From the NCBI GenBank assembly GCA_030532575.1, contig JAUNKV010000003.1:62001-126000 (forward strand): a DNA stretch of 64,000 nt, in the 5' to 3' direction. Shown here one piece after another: positions 18,430 to 28,788 of the stretch (position 1 is its first letter; the number at the start of each line of letters is the position of its first letter). A model generated the notes under the pieces. It made no database searches. It was not told the origin of the DNA and saw only the letters and a list, made by a program, of their open reading frames with translations. The position numbers and the translations under genes were made by a program. The stretch comes from Propionibacteriaceae bacterium (GTDB lineage Bacteria > Actinomycetota > Actinomycetes > Propionibacteriales > Propionibacteriaceae).

Positions 18430-19782
18430 TCAGATCTTCTCCAGGGCGACGTTGCGGGTCTCCTTGGCGAAGAGATAGGTGATGCCGCCGATGACGAGCA
18501 GTGCGGCGAACAGGAAGAACGCCGGGGGGACCGCATCCCGGGTCACGTTCTGCTTGATGGCGTCGCCACCGATCAGGGCACCCATGAGGAAGGGGCCGAT
18601 GATCTTCGCGGTGGCACCGATGCCGTAGCCGAGGCCAAGACCGGTGGAGCGGGCCTCGTTCGGGAACTGCTCCGCACCGAAGGCGTTGAGGATGCCGAAG
18701 GCGCCGTCACCGAAGGTCATGGCGATGAGGATGCCGATGAAGAACACCCAGCCGTTGTCCGTGGTCGCTGCGATCACACAGCCGACGGCACCGACCATGC
18801 CAAACAGGAACATCACCAGACGGCGACCGATCCGGTCAGCCAGCCACGCCGACCCGAGACGCCCCACCACGTCGGCGAGGGAGACGATGGTGAACAGGGT
18901 GCCGACCATCGCCACCGAGAACCCGAAGCCGTCCTTGAGCAGCGTCTGGCCCCACGACTGCACGGTGAAGGAGCCGAGGATGAAGCTGAACGAGCCCAGC
19001 GTGATGATGGCCAGTTCCTTCGGGTACTTGCTGAAGATGACCCCGAACGAGGACTTCTTGGTCTCCTCAACCGGTGGGAGCTCCCCGATCTGGTCGACAG
19101 GCATCTCCAGGGCCCAGGCGTAGGCCTCGCGGGCCTCGTCGAAACGCCCCTGGGACTGCAGGAACCGGGGGGACTCGGGAACCACCCGCAACCACAGCAG
19201 CAGCAGGATCGGGATGGCTCCCAGGGCGATCAGGCCACGCCACCCGATGGCATCGCCAAGCCACAGCTGCGCCTGCGCCCCGAGCAGCAGACCCACGGGA
19301 ATGAACACCGAGGCCAGACCAGCCAACAGGCCACGCCGCTTCGCGGGTACGAATTCCTGAACGTACGGGATGGAGATGATGTTGAGGCCACCGACACCGG
19401 CGCCGACGATCACCCTGAGGACGGCCAGCATGATCCAGCCACGCTCCGGGGTGAGCAGGGTCACTGCTGTGAAGACGGTGAACAGCACCACGCACCAGAA
19501 GAAGGAGGCCCGACGTCCGATCCGATCGGCCAGGGCGCCCCACAGGATCGCGCCCAGCACGGTTCCGGCGCCGGAGGCCCCCAGAATCCAGGCGGCCTCG
19601 AAGCCGGTGAGGTTCCACGGCTTGGTCAGCAGGGAGACCACGAAGCCGATCAGGAACATGTCGAAGAACTCGGAGATGTTGGCCACGATGACCAAGGAGA
19701 TGAGGTTCTTCTGGTTCTTGGTGAGGGGACGGGAATCGATGAGTTCGCTCGTCGTGGGACGAGCATCAGGTGAAGTGGTCAT
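18430..19782 (-). CDS. MFS transporter, probable importer of the operon's sugar-acid substrate
   Basis: A 450-residue major facilitator with twelve hydrophobic segments. The signature GALADRIGRRASFF sits between helices 2 and 3, with a repeat (AWLADRIGRRLVMF) between helices 8 and 9. PESPRFL follows helix 6, as in the sugar-porter and acid:proton symporter families. It is the last gene of a six-gene minus-strand operon, 12 bases after the kinase, and precedes a strong terminator. There is no PTS component in the operon, so uptake is probably proton-coupled with later phosphorylation by the PfkB kinase (inference). Confidence 0.82.
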   Translation of the reverse strand: MTTSPDARPTTSELIDSRPLTKNQKNLISLVIVANISEFFDMFLIGFVVSLLTKPWNLTGFEAAWILGASGAGTVLGAILWGALADRIGRRASFFWCVVLFTVFTAVTLLTPERGWIMLAVLRVIVGAGVGGLNIISIPYVQEFVPAKRRGLLAGLASVFIPVGLLLGAQAQLWLGDAIGWRGLIALGAIPILLLLWLRVVPESPRFLQSQGRFDEAREAYAWALEMPVDQIGELPPVEETKKSSFGVIFSKYPKELAIITLGSFSFILGSFTVQSWGQTLLKDGFGFSVAMVGTLFTIVSLADVVGRLGSAWLADRIGRRLVMFLFGMVGAVGCVIAATTDNGWVFFIGILIAMTFGDGAFGILNAFGAEQFPNEARSTGLGLGYGIGATAKIIGPFLMGALIGGDAIKQNVTRDAVPPAFFLFAALLVIGGITYLFAKETRNVALEKI

Positions 19783-19794
19783 GATGGGGCTCGC

Positions 19795-20748
19795 TCATCG
19801 GATGATGTCGGTGGTGGTGGGGATGGCGAGTTCCGACGGGGTGATGTGCGTCAGGTCGCCGTGATGGGTCAGCGCGTACTTCGACACGCGCAGCCCGTAG
19901 CTGATTCCCTGACGGACATCCCCGCCGAGGAAACCGTGCAGGGTGGCAGCGACGAAGGAGTCGCCGGCACCGGGGCGGTCGATGACGGGGACGATGTCCA
20001 CCTGGCGGTCATCCAGGCCATCAGGTCCCGCGTAGTAGACGCCGTTGCAGCCATCGGTGGAGACGACGTACTCGGCCCCGAACTTCTCCCGCAACTGACG
20101 GGAGATCTCGGCCCGCTCACCGTCGAGCCCCCACAGGATGCCGGCATCCTTGCGCGAGCAGAAGATGATGCGGCACTTGTCGGCGATACCGCTCAGCACC
20201 TCAGCAGCTCGCTCCGGGCTCCACAGCAGACCCCGGTAGTTGACGTCGAGGGCCACGTCGACGCCTCGTTCGTGGGCGGCATCGACGAAGTGGGTGATGA
20301 CCTTCGCGGTGTTCTCGGTCAGCGCGGTGGTGATCCCGGTCACGAAGGCCAGCTTCGTGTTCAGCATCGAGTCCCAGTTGATGTCCGAGACCTCGATCTC
20401 ACGGAAGGCCGTGTTCAGGCGGTCGTAGGTGACCCGTGACGGCATCGGGGGCTCACCCGGCTCCATGAAGTACAGCGCGACCCGGCCCTCGGGCACCCGG
20501 ATCATGTTGCTCATGTCCACGCCGACGGCGCGGAACTCCGCCAGGCAGCGCTCCGCCAGGTCGGACTCGGGCATGACCGAGCACCAGGAGGTGGAGCGGC
20601 CGAGCTGGGACAGCAGGCCGGAGACGTTCGCCTCGGAGCAGGCGGCGGTCATCCGGAGCTGACGTGTGTTGGACAGCCGTTCCCCCTGGGGAACGGTCAA
20701 ACGGATCTGGCCTTCGCCAATGGTTGTCAAATCGAACATGGTGGTCAC
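19795..20748 (-). CDS. PfkB-family carbohydrate kinase
   Basis: A 317-residue kinase of the 2-keto-3-deoxygluconate-kinase-like group. The C-terminal PfkB signature DRPGAGDSF (around residue 266) contains the catalytic aspartate and anion hole; the N-terminal GEGQIRL and the SxLG substrate-side region are also present. The GTG start at 20748 overlaps the epimerase stop as GTGA; an ATG three codons later is equally possible. In this operon it is the only visible phosphorylating enzyme and so would phosphorylate the imported sugar acid or lactone (inference). Confidence 0.83.
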   Translation of the reverse strand: MTTMFDLTTIGEGQIRLTVPQGERLSNTRQLRMTAACSEANVSGLLSQLGRSTSWCSVMPESDLAERCLAEFRAVGVDMSNMIRVPEGRVALYFMEPGEPPMPSRVTYDRLNTAFREIEVSDINWDSMLNTKLAFVTGITTALTENTAKVITHFVDAAHERGVDVALDVNYRGLLWSPERAAEVLSGIADKCRIIFCSRKDAGILWGLDGERAEISRQLREKFGAEYVVSTDGCNGVYYAGPDGLDDRQVDIVPVIDRPGAGDSFVAATLHGFLGGDVRQGISYGLRVSKYALTHHGDLTHITPSELAIPTTTDIIR

Positions 20749-21416
20749 CTGCTCACTCCAGTGGAAGCGTTGATGGTTCCGTACCGGTTGGAGTACCGGT
20801 CGAAATTGGCTGCGATCTCTTCTGCGGGAAGGTCCTCGACCTGCCCGAGCTGCATGGCGGCGAACACCGTCGCTGCCACGTCCTCCACCATCACCGCAGC
20901 CTGGAGGGCCTTGTTGATGTTCGGCCCGATGGTGAAGACCCCGTGCTGTTTCATCAAGACAGCGGGGGAGTGTCCGATGGCGGCCAGCAGCTCACGGCCG
21001 ATGGCCTCCGACCCGATCTGTGCGTAGCCCCCACAGGGCACCGGCCCGCCGAACTCGTCGGCGATGGCGGTGAGCACGCAGGGGATGGGTTTGCCGACCG
21101 CGGCGAAGGCGGTCGCATACCTCGAGTGGGTGTGGACCACCGCCCCGACATCCTCGCGTTCCCGGTAGATGGCCAGGTGGGAGGCGGTGTCCGACGAGGG
21201 GCCACGCTCCCCGTCGATGACCTTTCCCGCCAGATCCACCACCACCATGTCAGCCGGGGTCATCTCCGAGTACAACATCCCCGAGGGCTTGATGACGATG
21301 AGGTCCCGGTCCTTCGTGATGGCGGACAGGTTCCCGCCGGTCCAGGCGACCAAGCCGTTCTCCGGAAGGGCGAGATTGCCCCTCCAGACCTGTTCGCGCA
21401 GTTCTTGCAGCATCAT
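20745..21416 (-). CDS. araD: L-ribulose-5-phosphate 4-epimerase (AraD/UlaF/SgbE family)
   Basis: A 223-residue class II aldolase-family epimerase. GNLSA and KPSGM bind phosphate, SSDTASHLAIYR and VVHTHSRYATAFA supply the zinc histidines, and a third His lies in MKQHGVF. YGTIN near the end aligns with the family C-terminus. It would convert L-ribulose 5-phosphate to D-xylulose 5-phosphate, the final step before the pentose phosphate pathway. ATG 21416 has AAGGAG upstream. It follows the UlaE gene by 12 bases. Confidence 0.85.
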   Translation of the reverse strand: MMLQELREQVWRGNLALPENGLVAWTGGNLSAITKDRDLIVIKPSGMLYSEMTPADMVVVDLAGKVIDGERGPSSDTASHLAIYREREDVGAVVHTHSRYATAFAAVGKPIPCVLTAIADEFGGPVPCGGYAQIGSEAIGRELLAAIGHSPAVLMKQHGVFTIGPNINKALQAAVMVEDVAATVFAAMQLGQVEDLPAEEIAANFDRYSNRYGTINASTGVSR

Positions 21417-21428
21417 TGCTGTCTCCTT

Positions 21429-22274
21429 TCAGACGATCCGCAGCCCGGCGGCCGTCGCTTTCTCTTCGATGAATGTGCGTGCCTCACGGCACTTGTCGAG
21501 GGAATCCGGGGCATCGTCGTGCCACATCTCCAACATCACGCGGCCAGACCAGTGCTGCCTGGCCAGCTCGGCGAAGGCGGAGTCGAAGTCCGCGACACCG
21601 GTCCCGAAGGGCACCCTGCGCGGTTGCCCCGGCAGGACATCCTTGACGTGGAGAGCAACCAGGTGCCCCTCACACGCGGCGAGTTCCGGGCCGGACTGGC
21701 CACCGTGGCCTGCGATGTTGCCCACATCCGGGTAGCACTGGAGCCAGGGGGAGTTCACCAGGTCCACCAGCTCCATCACATCCGGCACGGAGGTGATGTC
21801 GTTGCCGTCGACGTTCTCAATGGCCAGCACGACTCCCTCCCGGGCAGCCAGGGGGACAGCCGCCAGCAGGGAGTCGATGTAGCGCTGCCTGGCACCCTCG
21901 TCGGGCTCCTCGTAGTAGGCGTAGTAGCCCGCCACCTGCACGATGCCGACCCCGAGGTCCGCAGCCAGCCGAATCCCCTTGCGGTAGACCTCAACCGCCT
22001 GCCGACGGATTTCGGGGTCCTTGGAGCCGGGCATGACCGAACGATGGAGGCTGAGGCACAGCCCGCCGATCTTGGCCCCTGCGTCCTGGGCGGCGTCGCG
22101 CACCAGGCGACGGGTCGCCCGGTCCCAGTCCAGCCTGGCGGAACGCTCCGGTGACTCGTCGATGGACAGGTCGAGGAAGCTGAACCCGGCCTCGGGCACC
22201 TGGGCGAAGAACCTGGCCCAGTCCGAGGAACTGAGGAGGGCTTTCTCGTAGATCCCCAGCGTGATCCCGGTCAC
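21429..22274 (-). CDS. ulaE: L-ribulose/L-xylulose-5-phosphate 3-epimerase (UlaE/SgbU family)
   Basis: 281 residues and strongly similar, as I remember it, to E. coli UlaE: the LGIYEKAL start, SIDES, RLDWDR, LSLHR, QVAGYYAYY, YPDVGN, HVKD and PFGTGVADF. The four metal ligands of the TIM-barrel epimerase are present (Glu in AIENVDG, Asp in YPDVGN, His in ALHVKD, Glu in LEMWHD). GTG at 22274 is chosen because it overlaps the decarboxylase stop as GTGA and has GAGG 7 bases upstream; a GTG at 22280 is an alternative. Confidence 0.88.
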   Translation of the reverse strand: MTGITLGIYEKALLSSSDWARFFAQVPEAGFSFLDLSIDESPERSARLDWDRATRRLVRDAAQDAGAKIGGLCLSLHRSVMPGSKDPEIRRQAVEVYRKGIRLAADLGVGIVQVAGYYAYYEEPDEGARQRYIDSLLAAVPLAAREGVVLAIENVDGNDITSVPDVMELVDLVNSPWLQCYPDVGNIAGHGGQSGPELAACEGHLVALHVKDVLPGQPRRVPFGTGVADFDSAFAELARQHWSGRVMLEMWHDDAPDSLDKCREARTFIEEKATAAGLRIV

Positions 22275-22924
22275 GGCCACACCTCGGCGATCGCGGCCTG
22301 CATCTGCTGGGCAGCTGCCCTCGGATCCTCTGCGGCCATGATGCTGCGTCCGGCGATGACCACACCGACGGGGGAACCGGTGAAGGTGCTGAGTTCGTCA
22401 GGCTTGATCCCGCCGGTGATGGTGACGGTGAAGCCGAGGTCGGCAAGCTCCTGAATCCGGGCCAGGTCATCGGGACCCCAGGTCAGTTCCCCGGCGGCCT
22501 CCCGGTCGCGTGAACGCTTGACGATCACGTGCTGCACCCCGAGTTCCCGCCAGGCCCGGGCCCGCTCGAAGTCGTAGCCCTCCCCGAGCTCCACCTGGAC
22601 CTCACCGCCGAACTCCCGGGCCACCGCAACCACCTGCTGGATGGTGGCCAGGGAGGCCCCGGCCACGCAGGAGACCCAGCTGGCCCCGGCCTCGAAACAG
22701 TGGCGGGAGATGAGGGAACCGGCCTCGGCGATGCGGACATCGGCGAGGATCGTCTTGTCCGGGTACAGCGCCCTGATCTCGCGAACTGCGCGGAGCCCCT
22801 CGGCGATGATGAGGATGGTTCCGCACTCGATGACATCCACCACCGGTTCGGCCCGGTTCAGCGCGGACAACGCCGTCACGAGGTCGGGGTTGTCCACGGC
22901 GACCTGAAGTCGGGGACGCATCAT
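22271..22924 (-). CDS. 3-keto-L-gulonate-6-phosphate decarboxylase-like protein (UlaD/OMPDC superfamily) with altered active site
   Basis: 217 residues, colinear with E. coli UlaD, in the orotidine-decarboxylase suprafamily. UlaD converts 3-keto-L-gulonate 6-phosphate to L-xylulose 5-phosphate. Retained positions (UlaD numbering, unchanged here) are Glu33, Asp62, Glu112, Arg139, the TITGG strand and the phosphate loop IAGRS. Three catalytic positions differ: Lys64 is Arg and Asp67 is Glu (ADVRIAEAG for ADAKIADAG), and His136 is Lys (VKRSRD for YHRSRD). The overall fold and operon position remain those of UlaD. It starts at ATG 22924, overlapping the lactonase stop as ATGA; a second ATG follows immediately. 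Confidence 0.8.
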   Translation of the reverse strand: MMRPRLQVAVDNPDLVTALSALNRAEPVVDVIECGTILIIAEGLRAVREIRALYPDKTILADVRIAEAGSLISRHCFEAGASWVSCVAGASLATIQQVVAVAREFGGEVQVELGEGYDFERARAWRELGVQHVIVKRSRDREAAGELTWGPDDLARIQELADLGFTVTITGGIKPDELSTFTGSPVGVVIAGRSIMAAEDPRAAAQQMQAAIAEVWP

Positions 22925-23907
22925 GACTCCTCGACGAAGGCGAAGAAGCGCTGGCCGTTGTGCATCAGCAGGTCCTCGACGTAGGCCCGGTCGAAGCCCT
23001 CTGCCAGCATCCGGGGGCCGTCCACGGCGGGGTTGAAGTCCACCCCGGTCACGGCACCATAGGCCTTCTGGTACGAGCGCTTGCCGGAGTCGGTGCCCAG
23101 CAGGATGCGCTGGCCGTACCCCTTGGCCCCCAGCTCGCGCAGCTCCATGATCCGGTTGGAGTCGGGCTGGTACTTGATGCGGTAGGTGCCATCGATCTCC
23201 AGGTAGACCCCGGTGTCCAGGATCTGGCTGAGGTAGTAGACGTCGGCGTTGCGCTGGATGTGACCGATGGCGATCTTCTCCGGGGCGACTCCGAGCTTGA
23301 TGAGCTCCTGGGCCTGCTCCAGACCGCAGGTGCCGTAGGTGGTGTGGGTGTTGATCGGCGCGCCGGTGGCGATGGAGGCGGCGGCTGCAGCCTCCATGCA
23401 GGTGCGCTCGAACTTCGTGATCTTCCCGTAGGCAGTCGCCACCTTGATGACCCCGGCCCGGTACTTCGTGCGGTTGACGATGGGTCCTGAGTAGTCGTTG
23501 GCGTCGATACCCTCGGTGATGTCGGCGATGAGCAGGTCGGCGATCTGGTCGACGGTGTAGCGCGAGACCCAGTGGGACTGGGTCTCCAGGTAGACGTGCT
23601 CGCGGTGGAATCCGGTGGCGGCCACGACGTGCAGGTCGGGGACGCGCCGGTTGACCTCAGCGAGCTTGACCAGGTCGCGACCGCAGTTCGCCGGACACAT
23701 GTCCACGACGGTGCCGGCCTTGGCCCAGTTCTTGGAGGCCGTCACGAAGTAGGTGGCCTCCTCGACGGCCTTGTCCACGTCGTCGAGCTGGTGATCGGGG
23801 TCGATGTAGACCTCGCCTGCGCCGACTCGGATCAGGTGGTCGTGAGCGTTGACGACACCGAGCTGCTCGGGGGCGACATCGCCAAGGATGGTGCGAACCT
23901 TTGCCAT
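22921..23907 (-). CDS. phosphotriesterase-family hydrolase, probable (phospho)lactonase
   Basis: A 328-residue amidohydrolase-fold protein with the binuclear metal set of the phosphotriesterase family: HxH in NAHDHL (His22, His24), the bridging Lys in GVIKVATAYG, His in INTHTTYG, His in IGHIQRN and Asp in LGTDSGK. Family members in sugar-acid operons hydrolyse 1,4-lactone phosphates, so a lactonase step ahead of the UlaD-like enzyme is proposed; UlaG, a different fold, does this in E. coli. ATG 23907 has AGGAGGAA upstream. It is the first gene of the operon, divergent from the SorC regulator. Confidence 0.82.
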   Translation of the reverse strand: MAKVRTILGDVAPEQLGVVNAHDHLIRVGAGEVYIDPDHQLDDVDKAVEEATYFVTASKNWAKAGTVVDMCPANCGRDLVKLAEVNRRVPDLHVVAATGFHREHVYLETQSHWVSRYTVDQIADLLIADITEGIDANDYSGPIVNRTKYRAGVIKVATAYGKITKFERTCMEAAAAASIATGAPINTHTTYGTCGLEQAQELIKLGVAPEKIAIGHIQRNADVYYLSQILDTGVYLEIDGTYRIKYQPDSNRIMELRELGAKGYGQRILLGTDSGKRSYQKAYGAVTGVDFNPAVDGPRMLAEGFDRAYVEDLLMHNGQRFFAFVEES

Positions 23908-24032
23908 TGTTCCTCCTCATGTCTCCGGGGGCCCCATTGGTCCCGCAGTGCCTTCATCGTGCCTGCTGGGGTCACGCTTTCCAAGTGAGTGAAGGAACAT
24001 TTGTGCTTCTGTTTCGCCTGAGGGGCGATGTA

Positions 24033-24046
24033 TCGTGGTTTCACGA
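24033..24046. promoter_or_regulatory. short perfect inverted repeat in the regulator/operon intergenic region
   Basis: TCGTG and CACGA separated by GTTT. It lies between the divergent SorC and lactonase genes, 5 bases from a second dyad. Confidence 0.4.
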
Positions 24047-24051
24047 GTGAT

Positions 24052-24072
24052 TTTGCTGAAACTGCCAGCAAA
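24052..24072. promoter_or_regulatory. candidate SorC-family operator
   Basis: TTTGCTG and CAGCAAA are exact inverted arms with a 7-base spacer, in an unusually AT-rich patch directly upstream of the SorC-type gene. The spacing fits a dimeric helix-turn-helix site. Confidence 0.5.
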
Positions 24073-24094
24073 GGTTTGAGAGAAAGAGGCACGT

Positions 24095-25054
24095 ATGTGC
24101 GCAAAAGGGGATCGTGGGCAGGTGCAGCAGCTCCTGAACGTGGCACGGATGTACTACATGGAGAACCTCAGCCAGGCCGAGATCGCCGACCGGGTGGGGT
24201 ACTCCCGGCCCACCGTCTCCAAGATGCTGACCGAGGCGCGGGCCAAAGGCATGGTGCGGATCAGCATCGAACATCCGCTGCAACAGGCCTTCGAACTGGA
24301 GCGGCAGCTCACCAAGCGTTTCGGCCTCAAGGTCGCCCTCGTGGCAGGGGCTGACCACCGTTCATCGGCCGAGGCGGTCGGGGAGGTGGCGGCAGGGCTC
24401 GTGGCCGAGTCCGGGAACGCCCACACGGTGCTGGCGCTGTCGAATGGGACCTCCGTGGCGGCCGTCGTCCACGCCATGCCGCAACGCCACTGGCAGTACA
24501 GCAGCGTGGTGCAGATGGTGGGCTCCTTGGCCCAGGTCGGGGCAGACATGGTTGATTCTCCGGAGCTGTGCCGACTCATGGCGCGTCGCCTGGGTGGCAC
24601 CTACCGACCGATGCCGGTTCCGCTGGTGCTGGGGTCAGCGGCGATGGCCCAGGCCATGCGTCAGGAGGAGCTGGTGCTCACCACCCTGGAGCTCGCGGCC
24701 CGCTCGGACATCGCCCTGACGGGGGTTGGAGCCGTTGGGCCGGAGGGGCACCCGGGCGCGATCCTCGCTCCCTGGGTGACTCCGAGCCTGGCTGCGGAGG
24801 TGCATCGACGTGGCGCCGTCGCCCACGTCTCAGGACACTACTTCGACGCCTCGGGCAGGCACATCAAGGATCCGATGTGTGACCGACTCATCGCGATGGA
24901 TCCGGAGCGGCTGGGGGAGATCGAGTTGTCCCTTGCTGTGGCCTGGGGAGCGGAGAAGGTGGCGGCCCTGCACGCAGTGCTGCGCGCTGGTCTCATCTCA
25001 GGACTCGCGACCGACGAGGTCACTGCGCGTCTGCTGCTCAGCCATCGACCCTGA
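24095..25054 (+). CDS. SorC/DeoR-family sugar-binding transcriptional regulator
   Basis: A 319-residue regulator. The N-terminal helix-turn-helix reads LSQAEIADRVGYSRPTVSKMLTEAR (about residues 25-50). A sugar-isomerase-like effector domain follows with LALSNGTS, VVQMVGSLAQ, GVGAVGPEG and VAWGAEK, as in SorC proteins that bind phosphorylated sugars. It is divergent from the lactonase-to-MFS operon with 187 bases between, so it most likely controls that operon, with a pathway sugar phosphate as the signal (inference). Its last 17 bases overlap the convergent mutarotase gene. Confidence 0.88.
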   Translation: MCAKGDRGQVQQLLNVARMYYMENLSQAEIADRVGYSRPTVSKMLTEARAKGMVRISIEHPLQQAFELERQLTKRFGLKVALVAGADHRSSAEAVGEVAAGLVAESGNAHTVLALSNGTSVAAVVHAMPQRHWQYSSVVQMVGSLAQVGADMVDSPELCRLMARRLGGTYRPMPVPLVLGSAAMAQAMRQEELVLTTLELAARSDIALTGVGAVGPEGHPGAILAPWVTPSLAAEVHRRGAVAHVSGHYFDASGRHIKDPMCDRLIAMDPERLGEIELSLAVAWGAEKVAALHAVLRAGLISGLATDEVTARLLLSHRP

Positions 25055-25874
25055 TCTGCAGCTCGAGGGTGTGGCTGCCACCGGAGGGGATGTGCACGGC
25101 CTGTTCGGAGACGTTGCCCACCTCGATGCACACCATCGAACGCCACTCGTCGGCGGCGAAGCCGGGGAAACGCAGTTTCGGGCCCGGGTTCCACACCACC
25201 ACATTGGCCCCACCCTGCTGGGTGATCCGGGTCCGTCTGGTGCCCTCGACCAGGGTCACGGCACCGGCATGGTGGTAGACGCGATCCATGTGGCGGCCGA
25301 GCCTGAGTGGGGCCTGTTCCACGGTCACGGTCCCATCCGTGGCGAAGTCGCGGAACGGCACCCCCTCGAGCCCTTCGATCCGGGCCAGGGACACGTCGTC
25401 CACCCGCAGGTAGGTGTGCAGTGCCTGGTCAAGGATGAAAGCCGTGGTGGGGGAACGGACGGTGAGGCTGATCGCCAGGTGATCGGTGAACTGCGCCGCC
25501 AGGCGGTACCTCAGGTCCGGCGGGTAGTCGCTGGCTCCGGGAAGATGGGCCACATCGCTGTGTGAGAGCTCCCAGACCAGGCGTTCCGGGGTCTGCTCGA
25601 CCAGCCGCCACGGCACCCAGCGCACCAGGCCGTGCCCGTGTGGCACCTGCACCTCGGCCCTCCCACTGCCGAACCACGGGGCGCACACCGGCACCCCACC
25701 ATGGATCTCGTCCCCCGTGCCCACCAGGGCCTCCCGGCTGAGAAACAGCACCTCCTTTCCGCCGCGCGGTCTCCATGAGAGCACCGTCGCCCCCAGGTCG
25801 AGGGCGCTTCCCGTGGCGTGTTCATTCGTGACGGTGCGCAACCCGGCGTCGCACAGCTCCTGATCCGTGGCCAT
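25038..25874 (-). CDS. aldose 1-epimerase family protein (hexose-6-phosphate mutarotase-like)
   Basis: 278 residues with the galactose-mutarotase fold: GATVLSWRPRGGKEVLFLS at the front, GGVPVCAPWFGS, PHGHGLVRWVPW with the first His, and a late VVWNPGPK. This arrangement fits the YeaD subgroup, which interconverts alpha and beta hexose 6-phosphates. ATG 25874 is used; the longer reading frame upstream overlaps the phosphoribosyltransferase and lacks similarity. It converges with the SorC gene by 17 bases. It may serve the sugar-acid pathway or general sugar metabolism. Confidence 0.82.
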   Translation of the reverse strand: MATDQELCDAGLRTVTNEHATGSALDLGATVLSWRPRGGKEVLFLSREALVGTGDEIHGGVPVCAPWFGSGRAEVQVPHGHGLVRWVPWRLVEQTPERLVWELSHSDVAHLPGASDYPPDLRYRLAAQFTDHLAISLTVRSPTTAFILDQALHTYLRVDDVSLARIEGLEGVPFRDFATDGTVTVEQAPLRLGRHMDRVYHHAGAVTLVEGTRRTRITQQGGANVVVWNPGPKLRFPGFAADEWRSMVCIEVGNVSEQAVHIPSGGSHTLELQIRVDG

Positions 25875-25906
25875 GAGTAGGGAGCTTAAAGGGTGTGGGA
25901 ATCCTC

Positions 25907-25912
25907 TAACAT
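25907..25912 (+). promoter_or_regulatory. -10 element for leaderless phosphoribosyltransferase gene
   Basis: TAACAT ends 7 bases before the ATG at 25920, with no ribosome-binding site between. Confidence 0.45.
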
Positions 25913-25919
25913 TCCGGGT

Positions 25920-26414
25920 ATGGCCTATCACGCGGACGCCTCGGACACCGAGGGCAAGGAGATCCTGACCTGGGAGGGTCTGGGTCTGGCAACGGAGGAA
26001 CTGGCCCAGCAGGTCCACGATTCGGGTTTCAAGCCCAGCGTGGTCATCGCCATCGCACGCGGCGGCATGATCCCTGCGGGGGTGCTCACCTATCGGTTGG
26101 GCATCAAACTCACCGACGCCATCAACGTCGAGTTCTACACCGATGTGGAGCAGACCCTGCCGGACCCGGTGCTGCTCGCCCCGATGCTCGACACCGAGTC
26201 AATCGCAGGCAGGCAGCTGCTCGTGGTCGATGACGTCGCTGACTCCGGGCGCACCCTGGCGCTGGTGGTCAAGCTGCTGCGGGGTTTTGGGGCGGATGTG
26301 CGCAGTGCGGTGCTCTACACCAAGCCCTCCACCATCGTCGAACCCGATTTCTGCTGGAAACGAACCGATCAGTGGATCGTCTTCCCCTGGTCAGACAAAC
26401 CGCCGCTGGCGTGA
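25920..26414 (+). CDS. phosphoribosyltransferase (xanthine/guanine or hypoxanthine type)
   Basis: A 164-residue type I phosphoribosyltransferase. The PRPP loop LLVVDDVADSGRTL is near residue 100 and the N-terminal IAIARGGMIPAGVL is typical of xanthine-guanine and related enzymes that bind a purine and PRPP. The C-terminal WIVFPW is also family-like. Base specificity cannot be read. ATG 25920 is preferred because the family begins here. It is followed 13 bases later by a small co-oriented gene. Confidence 0.85.
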   Translation: MAYHADASDTEGKEILTWEGLGLATEELAQQVHDSGFKPSVVIAIARGGMIPAGVLTYRLGIKLTDAINVEFYTDVEQTLPDPVLLAPMLDTESIAGRQLLVVDDVADSGRTLALVVKLLRGFGADVRSAVLYTKPSTIVEPDFCWKRTDQWIVFPWSDKPPLA

Positions 26415-26628: not shown

Positions 26629-26733
26629 CCCAACTGCTGAACCGGGGGGTCCCAGCGACCAGCCCCGGGTAGGGGTAGTGTGTGTCCCCAACAGGGCACA
26701 GCAGCCCATCACCGGTACGCATTAGGAAGAGAT

Positions 26734-28788
26734 ATGACCCTCGACTGGACAGAACTGGACACTCGGGCGGTGGACACCGCGCGGGTCCTTGCCGCCGATG
26801 CCGTGGAAAAGGTGGGCAACGGCCACCCCGGCACGCCGATCTCCTTGGCCCCCGTCGCCCATCTGCTTTACCACAAGGTCATGAACCTTGACGTGGCCGA
26901 CGACGCCTGGATCGGCAGGGACCGCTTCGTGTTGTCGGTGGGTCACGCCTCGCTGACCCAGTACTGTCAGCTCTACCTGGCTGGGTGCGACCTCGAACTG
27001 GACGATCTCAAGGCGCTGCGCACCTGGGGAGCCAAGTGTGCCGGTCACCCCGAGTACGGGCACACCCGGTTCGTCGAATGCACCACGGGGCCGCTCGGGG
27101 CCGGGGTCAGCAACGCCGTCGGCATGGCGATGGCGGCCCGTCGTGAGCGTGGCCTCTTCGACCCCGATGCCCCCGAGGGGGAGTCGATCTTCGACCGCCA
27201 CGTCTACTGCCTGGTCGGTGATGGCTGCCTGCAGGAGGGGGTGGCCTCGGAGGCCGCCTCGCTGGCCGCAACCCAGAACCTCGGCAACCTCATCGTCATC
27301 TACGACGCCAACCGCATCACCATCGAGGGTGACATCAACATCGCCTTCACCGAGGATGTCCTGGCCCGCCACGCCGCCTACGGCTGGCACACCCAGGAGA
27401 TCGACTGGACCAACGGCGGCAATGAGTACGTGGAGGACGTCGCCGCCCTGTATGAGGCCATCGAGAAGGCCAAGCAGGTCACGGACCGGCCCTCGATCAT
27501 CAAGGTGAACACGATCATCGGGTGGCCGTTGCCGAACAAGGCCGGGTCCCATGACGTGCACGGCAACAAGATCGGCGGCGACGAGATCGCCCAGCTGAAG
27601 GAGAAGCTTGGCTTTGAGCCGGAGCCCTTCGCCATCGATCTGGAACTGGTCGAACAGACCCGTGCGGCGGCGGCCTCCCGCAGCCGGGCGGCCCGCGAGG
27701 CCTGGAACCAGAAGTATCAGGCATGGCGCGCTGCGAACCCGCAACGTGCCGCGCTGTTCGACCGCGCTCTGGCCCGGAAGCTGCCGGAGGACCTGAAGCT
27801 GCCCGTCTTCGACGAGGGCAAGATGTCCACCCGCAAGGCCTCCGGTGAGGTCCTGGCCGCCCTGGCCCCGCAGCTGCCCGAGCTGTGGGGTGGCTCCGCC
27901 GATCTCGCAGGGTCCAACAACACCACGATGAAGGGGCAGCCGAGCTTCCTGCCCGAGAACCGGCAGAGCCATGACTGGTCCGGAAACGAGTACGGCCGCA
28001 CCCTCCACTTCGGCATCCGTGAGCACGCGATGGGTGGCATCGTGAACGGGATCAACCTGTCCGGACTGACCCGCGCCTACTGTGGCACCTTCCTCGTGTT
28101 TGCCGACTACATGCGTCCCCCGGTGCGGCTGGCAGCCTTGATGGGGGTGCCGTCGGTGTTCGTGTGGACCCACGACTCGATCGGGGTCGGGGAGGATGGG
28201 CCCACCCACCAGCCCATCGAGCACTTGGCCTCACTGCGGGCCATCCCCAACTTCGACGTGGTGCGTCCCGCTGATGCCAACGAGACCGCCGTGGCCTGGG
28301 GGGAGATCCTGCGCCGCACCGACCATCCGGCCGGGATCATCCTGTCCCGGCAGGATCTGCGCACCGTCGAGCGCGGGGGTGAGTTCTCCTCCGCCGACGG
28401 TGTGGCCTTCGGCGGCTACGTCCTCAAGGAGGCCTCGGCCCAGCCGAAGCTCATCCTCATCGCCTCCGGCTCCGAGGTGTCCCTGGCCATCGACGCGGCG
28501 GCTCGCCTGGAGTCCGAGGGAGTACCCACGAGGGTGGTCTCCATGCCCTGCCAGGAGTGGTTCGACCAGCAGGGGGAGGAGTACCGCGAGCAGGTGCTGC
28601 CTGCGGCCGTGACGGCCCGGGTCTCCATCGAGGCCGGTATCGCGATGGGTTGGGCGAAGTACGTTGGTGCCCAGGGGGCCTCGGTCAGCATTGAGCACTT
28701 CGGCGCCTCGGCCGCCGGTGCGCGCTGCTTCGAGGAGTTCGGTTTCACCGTCGACAACGTCGTGCAGGTGGCCCGCACCGTGCTGTGA
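26734..28788 (+). CDS. tkt: transketolase
   Basis: 684 residues, the usual length. Thiamine-diphosphate motif GDGCLQEGVASEAASLA followed by NRITIEGD about 30 residues on, the N-terminal GNGHPGTPISLAPVAHLLY, and the C-terminal pyrimidine domain with GIREHAMGGIVNGINLSG and THDSIGVGEDGPTHQPIEHLA. It moves two-carbon units between pentose and hexose phosphates and would consume xylulose 5-phosphate from the nearby sugar-acid operon. ATG 26734 has AGGAAGA upstream; a GTG at 26680 lies outside the conserved protein. Confidence 0.95.
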   Translation: MTLDWTELDTRAVDTARVLAADAVEKVGNGHPGTPISLAPVAHLLYHKVMNLDVADDAWIGRDRFVLSVGHASLTQYCQLYLAGCDLELDDLKALRTWGAKCAGHPEYGHTRFVECTTGPLGAGVSNAVGMAMAARRERGLFDPDAPEGESIFDRHVYCLVGDGCLQEGVASEAASLAATQNLGNLIVIYDANRITIEGDINIAFTEDVLARHAAYGWHTQEIDWTNGGNEYVEDVAALYEAIEKAKQVTDRPSIIKVNTIIGWPLPNKAGSHDVHGNKIGGDEIAQLKEKLGFEPEPFAIDLELVEQTRAAAASRSRAAREAWNQKYQAWRAANPQRAALFDRALARKLPEDLKLPVFDEGKMSTRKASGEVLAALAPQLPELWGGSADLAGSNNTTMKGQPSFLPENRQSHDWSGNEYGRTLHFGIREHAMGGIVNGINLSGLTRAYCGTFLVFADYMRPPVRLAALMGVPSVFVWTHDSIGVGEDGPTHQPIEHLASLRAIPNFDVVRPADANETAVAWGEILRRTDHPAGIILSRQDLRTVERGGEFSSADGVAFGGYVLKEASAQPKLILIASGSEVSLAIDAAARLESEGVPTRVVSMPCQEWFDQQGEEYREQVLPAAVTARVSIEAGIAMGWAKYVGAQGASVSIEHFGASAAGARCFEEFGFTVDNVVQVARTVL

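Follow-up and report, generated by a model that had tools for sequence, protein, structure and literature searches.

A candidate ascorbate-type pathway without a phosphotransferase system in a Propionibacteriaceae genome

A six-gene operon with a divergent regulator gene lies within a 64,000-nucleotide stretch of contig JAUNKV010000003.1 (the window), from a Propionibacteriaceae bacterium whose 75 contigs total 3.19 Mb. The gene families encoded by the operon suggest that it may encode a bacterial ascorbate (Ula) pathway that works without a phosphotransferase system (PTS).

Gene content and layout of the operon

The operon is encoded on the minus strand and runs from position 23907 down to 18430. 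Its first gene (22921-23907) encodes an amidohydrolase of the phosphotriesterase (PTE) type, a probable phospho-lactonase. The second encodes a UlaD-like member of the 3-keto-L-gulonate 6-phosphate decarboxylase (KGPDC) family (22271-22924), identified by NCBIfam, Pfam and residue alignment, in which a DxRxxE motif replaces DxKxxD. A UlaE-like L-xylulose-5-phosphate 3-epimerase (21429-22280; NF009688, 325.4 bits, cut-off 317) and an AraD/UlaF-like L-ribulose-5-phosphate 4-epimerase (20745-21416; NF005123, 314 bits, cut-off 251) follow, both above the curated NCBIfam cut-offs of these subfamily models. The operon ends with a PfkB-family kinase (19795-20748; PF00294, 97.1 bits, cut-off 25.8), nearest to 2-keto-3-deoxygluconate (KDG) kinases, and a major facilitator superfamily (MFS) transporter of the organic-acid/proton symport kind (18430-19782; PF07690). 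The best NCBIfam subfamily for the transporter is aromatic acid/H+ symport, at 207.6 bits against a cut-off of 418.55. A SorC-type regulator with a PF04198 sugar-binding domain is encoded divergently on the plus strand (24095-25054). For all seven genes the families and coordinates agree with the original prediction, with NCBIfam and Pfam in support.

Consecutive genes overlap by 4 bases (PTE/UlaD and AraD/PfkB) or 10 bases (UlaD/UlaE), or are separated by gaps of 12 bases (UlaE/AraD and PfkB/MFS), which bears out the predicted coupling of the six genes. The single terminator of that prediction did not hold up: none was found at the operon end, and the scan gave three terminator-like sites, near the shuffle level of 2.0 (sd 1.6).

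The intergenic control region (23908-24094) contains a weak copy, with three mismatches, of a palindrome found in the relatives. This palindrome, TGAACAnnTGTTCA, which was picked from the same 40 SorC-PTE intergenic regions on which it was scored, occurs with at most three mismatches in 29 of them, compared with a mean of 2.65 and a maximum of 6 in 20 shuffles, all mononucleotide. In the window's genome, the operator pattern TGNACANNTGTTC occurs at three sites, all outside the cluster, against two for the reversed control, a result that lends no weight to an operator there. SorC is probably a repressor of the divergent promoter, relieved by binding of a phosphorylated intermediate. The 3' end of the SorC gene is overlapped by a convergent gene for an aldose-1-epimerase-like protein (25038-25946), an arrangement also seen in L065; no match to this gene was found beside the cluster in L025.

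Conservation of the gene set

Genome contigs were scanned with the PTE protein, a search that finds close relatives by design. It gave 42 loci in other genomes, all actinobacterial by their record titles, in which the presence of the PTE gene holds by construction. UlaD adjoins the PTE gene in every one (0 to 88 bases), and UlaE is likewise present in all 42, next to UlaD in 41 and 2.6 kb further on in L057. PfkB is found in 40 loci, SorC in 38, MFS in 37 and AraD in 36; SorC is divergent and less than 500 bases from the PTE gene in 38 of the 42. Some absences fall at contig ends (L031 for MFS, L059 for SorC, and L032), and L031, L045 and L047 have no SorC beside the PTE gene despite room for it. 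L037 has its PfkB-MFS pair on the far side of SorC. The original prediction depended on conservation of the gene set in related genomes; since the set recurs in 42 loci of other genomes, it exceeds chance.

A search with the UlaD protein gave a match at E < 1e-50 in 20 of 198 genomes of the family, including the window's own, and in two of 394 genomes of a class sample (the window's own and G198). The gene set is sporadic yet well conserved. In a same-genus relative (L149; G017:C82:3693-4218), the UlaD match is in two pieces, as though the gene were broken. Across the phylum, the phospho-furanose lactonase model NF045706 matched five of 396 genomes at E ≤ 1e-40, three of them outside this cluster. 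At E ≤ 1e-5, neither UlaD nor UlaE has a relative in the stretches around these three matches, and the pathway can therefore not be recognized by such a PTE by itself.

The flanks were scanned with Pfam for up to two genes on each side of 43 loci, giving 159 genes in halves of 72 and 87, and the 25 commonest families of each half (of 130 and of 84) were considered. Among these families, no oxidoreductase family has more than three matches in the 159 flanking genes: NmrA/NAD_binding_10 reaches 3/87, and Pyr_redox_2, DAO and IMPDH reach 2/72 each. A dehydrogenase of a rarer family may lie beside one or two loci. ABC_tran accounts for 5/72 and 4/87, FGGY kinase for 5/87, transketolase and Dak1 for 3/87 each and 6PGD for 1/72. 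Clustering of 1,478 open reading frames near the cluster returned mostly apparent shadow frames and Actinomyces synteny. A transketolase gene is found near the cluster in the window (26680-28788) and in L025, L055, L061, L062 and L065, and the three of these genes that were tested score above the cut-off of TIGR00232. This closeness is consistent with products leaving the route through the pentose phosphate pathway.

Conserved residues in the operon enzymes

The best NCBIfam model for the PTE-type protein is NF045706, at 247.3 bits against a curated equivalog cut-off of 630. Its closest solved structure is 3msr, which we take to be the Mycoplasma synoviae lactonase. H22 and H24 are kept in all 46 rows that reach them, and K155, H188, H216 and D273 in 48 of 48 rows; these six are presumably the metal-ligand positions. 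K245, Y246 and Y279, likewise kept in 48 of 48 rows, together with R219 and K276, presumably correspond to the phosphate-site positions of the mycoplasma lactonase MS53_0025, given an inferred offset of 2 between paper and chain numbering; the phosphate-site residues reportedly go back to Korczynska et al. 2014. R219 and K276 occur in 44/44 cluster proteins, where the mycoplasma proteins have K and R (4/4), a pair of lysine/arginine swaps. Since the enzyme keeps the phosphate-site positions, its substrate is probably a phosphorylated lactone, with the kinase acting before lactone opening. These residues fit the predicted role of the PTE-type enzyme in opening the lactone.

In all three mycoplasma stretches inspected (M. 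cynos, M. hyorhinis and M. gallopavonis), an annotated phospho-furanose lactonase begins a run with Ula genes. It is followed by ascorbate PTS components IIC, IIB and IIA, UlaD, a 3-epimerase and a 4-epimerase, and no UlaG is annotated in the stretch of any of the three records. In PMC4866288, a phosphotriesterase-type gene is proposed, from gene context, as the missing UlaG of swine mycoplasmas. The three records (L103, L104 and L105) are filed as plasmids in PLSDB; their size (0.4-1.0 Mb) and their genes for ribosomal proteins, ribonuclease R and asparagine-tRNA ligase make them look like chromosomes or parts of chromosomes.

Other relatives of the PTE-type protein have different neighbours. 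A distant one elsewhere in the phylum (L165:4209-8988) has as neighbours a creatininase-family protein, an EIIC-GAT permease, a glucuronate isomerase domain and a short-chain dehydrogenase/reductase. Those of L166:5906-8201 and of hits H43 and H49, from different phyla, lie beside or overlap FAD-dependent oxidoreductase genes, either matched or annotated.

The solved structure closest in sequence to the PfkB kinase is 2afb, a KDG kinase, and 1v19 ranks third; with the best KDG kinase model, NF041332, it scores 208 bits, below the curated cut-off of 440. Its GAGD motif (G260 A261 G262 D263) is invariant in 29 aligned rows, as are R110 and R172, which align with R105 and R167 of the 1v19 chain. 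The latter two we take to be carboxylate-site residues. KDG kinases act on an acid sugar, and the retention of both arginines suits such a substrate. Phosphorylation by PfkB, as originally predicted, is consistent with this kinship.

E. coli UlaE is the only solved sequence matched by the window's UlaE at E ≤ 1e-10; of two acidic residues that are presumably catalytic, the one at chain position 166 is kept in 44/44 proteins and the one at 262 in 43/44. D120 of E. coli AraD is kept in 38/38 AraD rows, and D76, H95, H97 and H171 in 37/38; D76 and D120 presumably distinguish epimerases from aldolases.

Among solved structures, UlaD is closest to E. coli KGPDC, both by sequence and by model, and the AlphaFold model (pLDDT 95.1) superposes on 1kv8 with a TM-score of 0.96. 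UlaD scores 241.4 bits with the subfamily model NF009832 (cut-off 250) and 214.1 bits with the UlaD equivalog model NF009831 (cut-off 294). For residue comparison, we aligned 44 cluster proteins (those of the window, L025 and L028-L069) in E. coli numbering. E33, D62, E112 and T169 are kept in 44/44 and R139 in 43/44. The window protein has R64, E67 and K136, whereas E. coli has K64, D67 and H136. The E. coli residues, with DxKxxD intact, are found in 9/9 other UlaDs (E. coli, Klebsiella, Pantoea, three mycoplasmas, Aerococcus and two lactobacilli); 55/55 HPS-like proteins from sampled actinobacteria also carry the K and D of DxKxxD. By the rule used, eight positions switch between the 44 and the nine, including 64, 67 and 136. 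The full DxRxxE motif with K136 is present in 18 of the 20 family genomes with a close UlaD; the other two, L133 and L149, are readable only in part.

A tree was built from 40 chosen rows, comprising 19 cluster proteins out of the 44, the nine other UlaDs and 12 HPS-like proteins. In it, the DxRxxE rows lie on one side of a branch (94/96) inside the KGPDC half, with poorly supported order among the KGPDC groups (75/35). According to structure titles, the K64A and H136A variants of E. coli KGPDC have been solved, so these residues had been of interest. In PMC12874384, the role of the DxKxxD side chains in orotidine 5'-monophosphate decarboxylase (OMPDC) is called still unknown. The DxRxxE family would offer a natural test of the function of the conserved Lys and Asp in the OMPDC suprafamily, because both residues are replaced in every member found. 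A role for UlaD as HPS in formaldehyde fixation was considered and rejected, the KGPDC-side residues being kept.

On two Lactobacillaceae plasmids (L107:2919-8187 and L109:2643-9334), the neighbours of UlaD are a Gnd-like dehydrogenase and a fructose-type PTS, and UlaE and AraD lie near. They show a different partner set for a KGPDC.

Substrate and comparison with known systems

Judged from these features, the operon is, on balance, probably a PTS-free version of the bacterial ascorbate pathway, with L-ascorbate as the most likely substrate. Gene families, gene order, conservation and residues are read from the sequence; the substrate, all the individual reactions and their order, and the regulation are inferred from them. 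Proton symport through the MFS transporter would bring in an acid lactone, most likely L-ascorbate, and the PfkB kinase would phosphorylate the primary hydroxyl (O6) of the lactone with ATP. The PTE-type enzyme would then open the phosphorylated lactone to 3-keto-L-gulonate 6-phosphate, which the DxRxxE member of the KGPDC family would decarboxylate to L-xylulose 5-phosphate. Epimerization by UlaE and UlaF would yield D-xylulose 5-phosphate, which would enter the pentose phosphate pathway.

KGPDC requires a 3-keto acid, and the gamma-lactone of 3-keto-L-gulonate is ascorbate. Because no oxidoreductase family is common in the flanks, the lactone probably enters the route at the 3-keto level, as ascorbate or a close analogue. 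The retention of UlaE and UlaF makes L-xylulose 5-phosphate the most likely product. These points together make L-ascorbate the simplest substrate, via ascorbate 6-phosphate. The original prediction had instead suggested a route distinct from ascorbate; the mycoplasma relative of the lactonase beside an ascorbate PTS and UlaDEF speaks otherwise, as do the catalytic positions kept in UlaE and AraD and the flanking genes described above.

Uptake independent of a PTS, also predicted, is consistent with the MFS gene inside the operon and with the lack of any EIIC-GAT (PF03611) match in the window's genome or in G023, a genome of the same genus, in a search whose E. coli control was positive. The UlaG model NF008688 found no match in five cluster genomes, the window's own included; of 14 named genomes used as a control, six gave matches, including E. 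coli, and one scored above the cut-off.

Several observations weigh against this assignment. UlaD, PTE, PfkB and MFS all score below their curated NCBIfam cut-offs, and an EIIC-GAT gene occurs elsewhere in three of five tested cluster genomes (G004, G006 and G011). AraD is the loosest member of the set: it is absent despite room from L033, L040, L044 and L054, and lies on the opposite strand in 11 of 36 loci. Beyond the opposite-strand AraD of five loci (5/42) is a xylulokinase-like FGGY kinase gene, and for this reason AraD may belong to a pentose operon there. The MFS gene is replaced in two loci. A Microbacteriaceae metagenome-assembled genome (L041:14716-19996) has an oligopeptide-type ABC importer past AraD, and in Ornithinimicrobium cavernae (L068:14312-20607), which lacks MFS, an ABC importer starts 110 bases past AraD. 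The sulfatase and FGE-type genes of the latter locus hint at an ascorbate derivative rather than free ascorbate. The characterized mycoplasma lactonase MS53_0025 reportedly acts on the 5-phosphates of D-xylono- and L-arabino-1,4-lactone, which are C5 compounds. In the decarboxylase, DxRxxE (K64R, D67E) is found in 44/44 cluster proteins and K rather than H at position 136 in 39/44, in a comparison whose other members include no actinobacterial UlaD from an ascorbate-PTS operon; these replacements may mean another substrate.

The FGGY genes lie in five Actinomyces loci (L053:16592, L056:16539, L058:16444, L061:17527 and L069:14876), followed in L053 by a DhaK gene. Upstream in L041 lie a Gnd gene and a gene for a TIM-barrel protein that matches IolE weakly. 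The ABC importer of L068 is followed by the sulfatase (PF00884, CxPxR) and then by the FGE-type gene, each overlapping the next. This sulfatase is nearest to choline sulfatase, and no relative at E ≤ 1e-8 was found in the 42 other loci searched. Sulfated ascorbate as the feed of this locus is a guess.

A possible though less probable explanation is that the same chemistry serves another lactone, either a C5 aldonolactone or a compound related to ascorbate (a stereoisomer or derivative), with DxRxxE and H136K reflecting a different polyol part. The motif, which the original prediction did not mention, is the main reason why the substrate may be such a stereoisomer or derivative. R64 and E67 keep the charges of the residues they replace on longer side chains, which suggests a refitted site. 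The NF045706 family name and the activities reported for MS53_0025 point to furanolactone phosphates of C5 acids, and the L068 sulfatase and FGE-type genes also favour a different lactone. However, the catalytic positions kept in UlaE and AraD fit L-xylulose 5-phosphate, and a simple aldonolactone would need an oxidoreductase to give the 3-keto acid, for which no family is common in the flanks.

It is unlikely that the operon instead follows a Yia/Sgb-like route, in which an open acid such as 3-keto-L-gulonate is imported and phosphorylated by PfkB and the PTE-type enzyme only re-opens lactones formed by chance. A Pantoea plasmid (L110) joins MFS, an FGGY kinase, UlaD, UlaE, AraD, YiaK and an SMP-30 family gene, and so indicates that a kinase and an MFS transporter can serve an open acid. 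Yet the PTE gene adjoins UlaD in all 42 loci, which were found through PTE, beyond the apparent need for a repair enzyme. Neither YiaK nor an FGGY kinase is among the operon genes of the window, and the FGGY genes of the relatives are those beyond AraD in five of the 42 loci. A changed reaction of the UlaD-like protein, for example as an HPS-like aldolase or synthase in an operon that does not decarboxylate, is very improbable: two DxKxxD residues are replaced, but E112, R139 and T169, which separate KGPDC from HPS in the rows compared, are KGPDC-side in 44, 43 and 44 of 44 proteins, KGPDCs rank above HPS among the nearest solved structures, and the partners are still UlaE- and UlaF-like.

With L-ascorbate as the preferred substrate, we tentatively suggest a broader and more doubtful proposal, namely that an ATP-dependent L-ascorbate 6-kinase and an Arg/Glu subfamily of KGPDC could constitute a wholly PTS-free vitamin C catabolism in actinobacteria, possibly fed by sulfated ascorbate in one lineage. 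If so, bacteria would phosphorylate vitamin C in two ways, by PTS and by an ATP-dependent kinase, and actinobacteria without a ula PTS could use it. Several of the cluster-bearing actinobacteria are, going by their names, presumably animal-associated. We found no report of ATP-dependent L-ascorbate 6-kinase activity in the open-access literature and none of this cluster, the latter judged in part by title. The parts are known; their combination and the DxRxxE decarboxylase are without description in the literature searched. The Salmonella kinase STM3547, near a phosphotriesterase gene, was considered, but according to PMC13432705 it has other neighbours and is not this cluster.

The E. coli ula (yjf) system, comprising UlaABC, UlaG, UlaD, UlaE and UlaF, resembles the window in keeping homologues of UlaD, UlaE and UlaF together, and the chemistry past the phosphorylated lactone is presumably shared. 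In the window, by contrast, MFS, PfkB and PTE stand where ula has the PTS and UlaG, the regulator is of the SorC type rather than the DeoR type of UlaR, and UlaD has DxRxxE. The mycoplasma operon likewise pairs a PTE-type lactonase, about 36-37% identical to the window's, with UlaDEF, but uses a PTS for uptake and phosphorylation and has an ordinary DxKxxD UlaD. With MS53_0025 (PDB 3msr, 3ovg), the window's lactonase has in common the family and the metal-ligand and phosphate-site positions, apart from the K/R swaps at two of them.

The Yia/Sgb route for 2,3-diketo- and 3-keto-L-gulonate, as seen in the Pantoea plasmid, also places a transporter and a kinase beside UlaD, UlaE and UlaF, with an FGGY kinase where the window has PfkB, and the YiaK reductase and SMP-30 family gene where it has the PTE-type lactonase. 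The KDG kinases 2afb and 1v19 are the nearest solved relatives of the window's PfkB kinase, which keeps their GAGD motif and two arginines, although the KDG pathway genes are not part of its operon.

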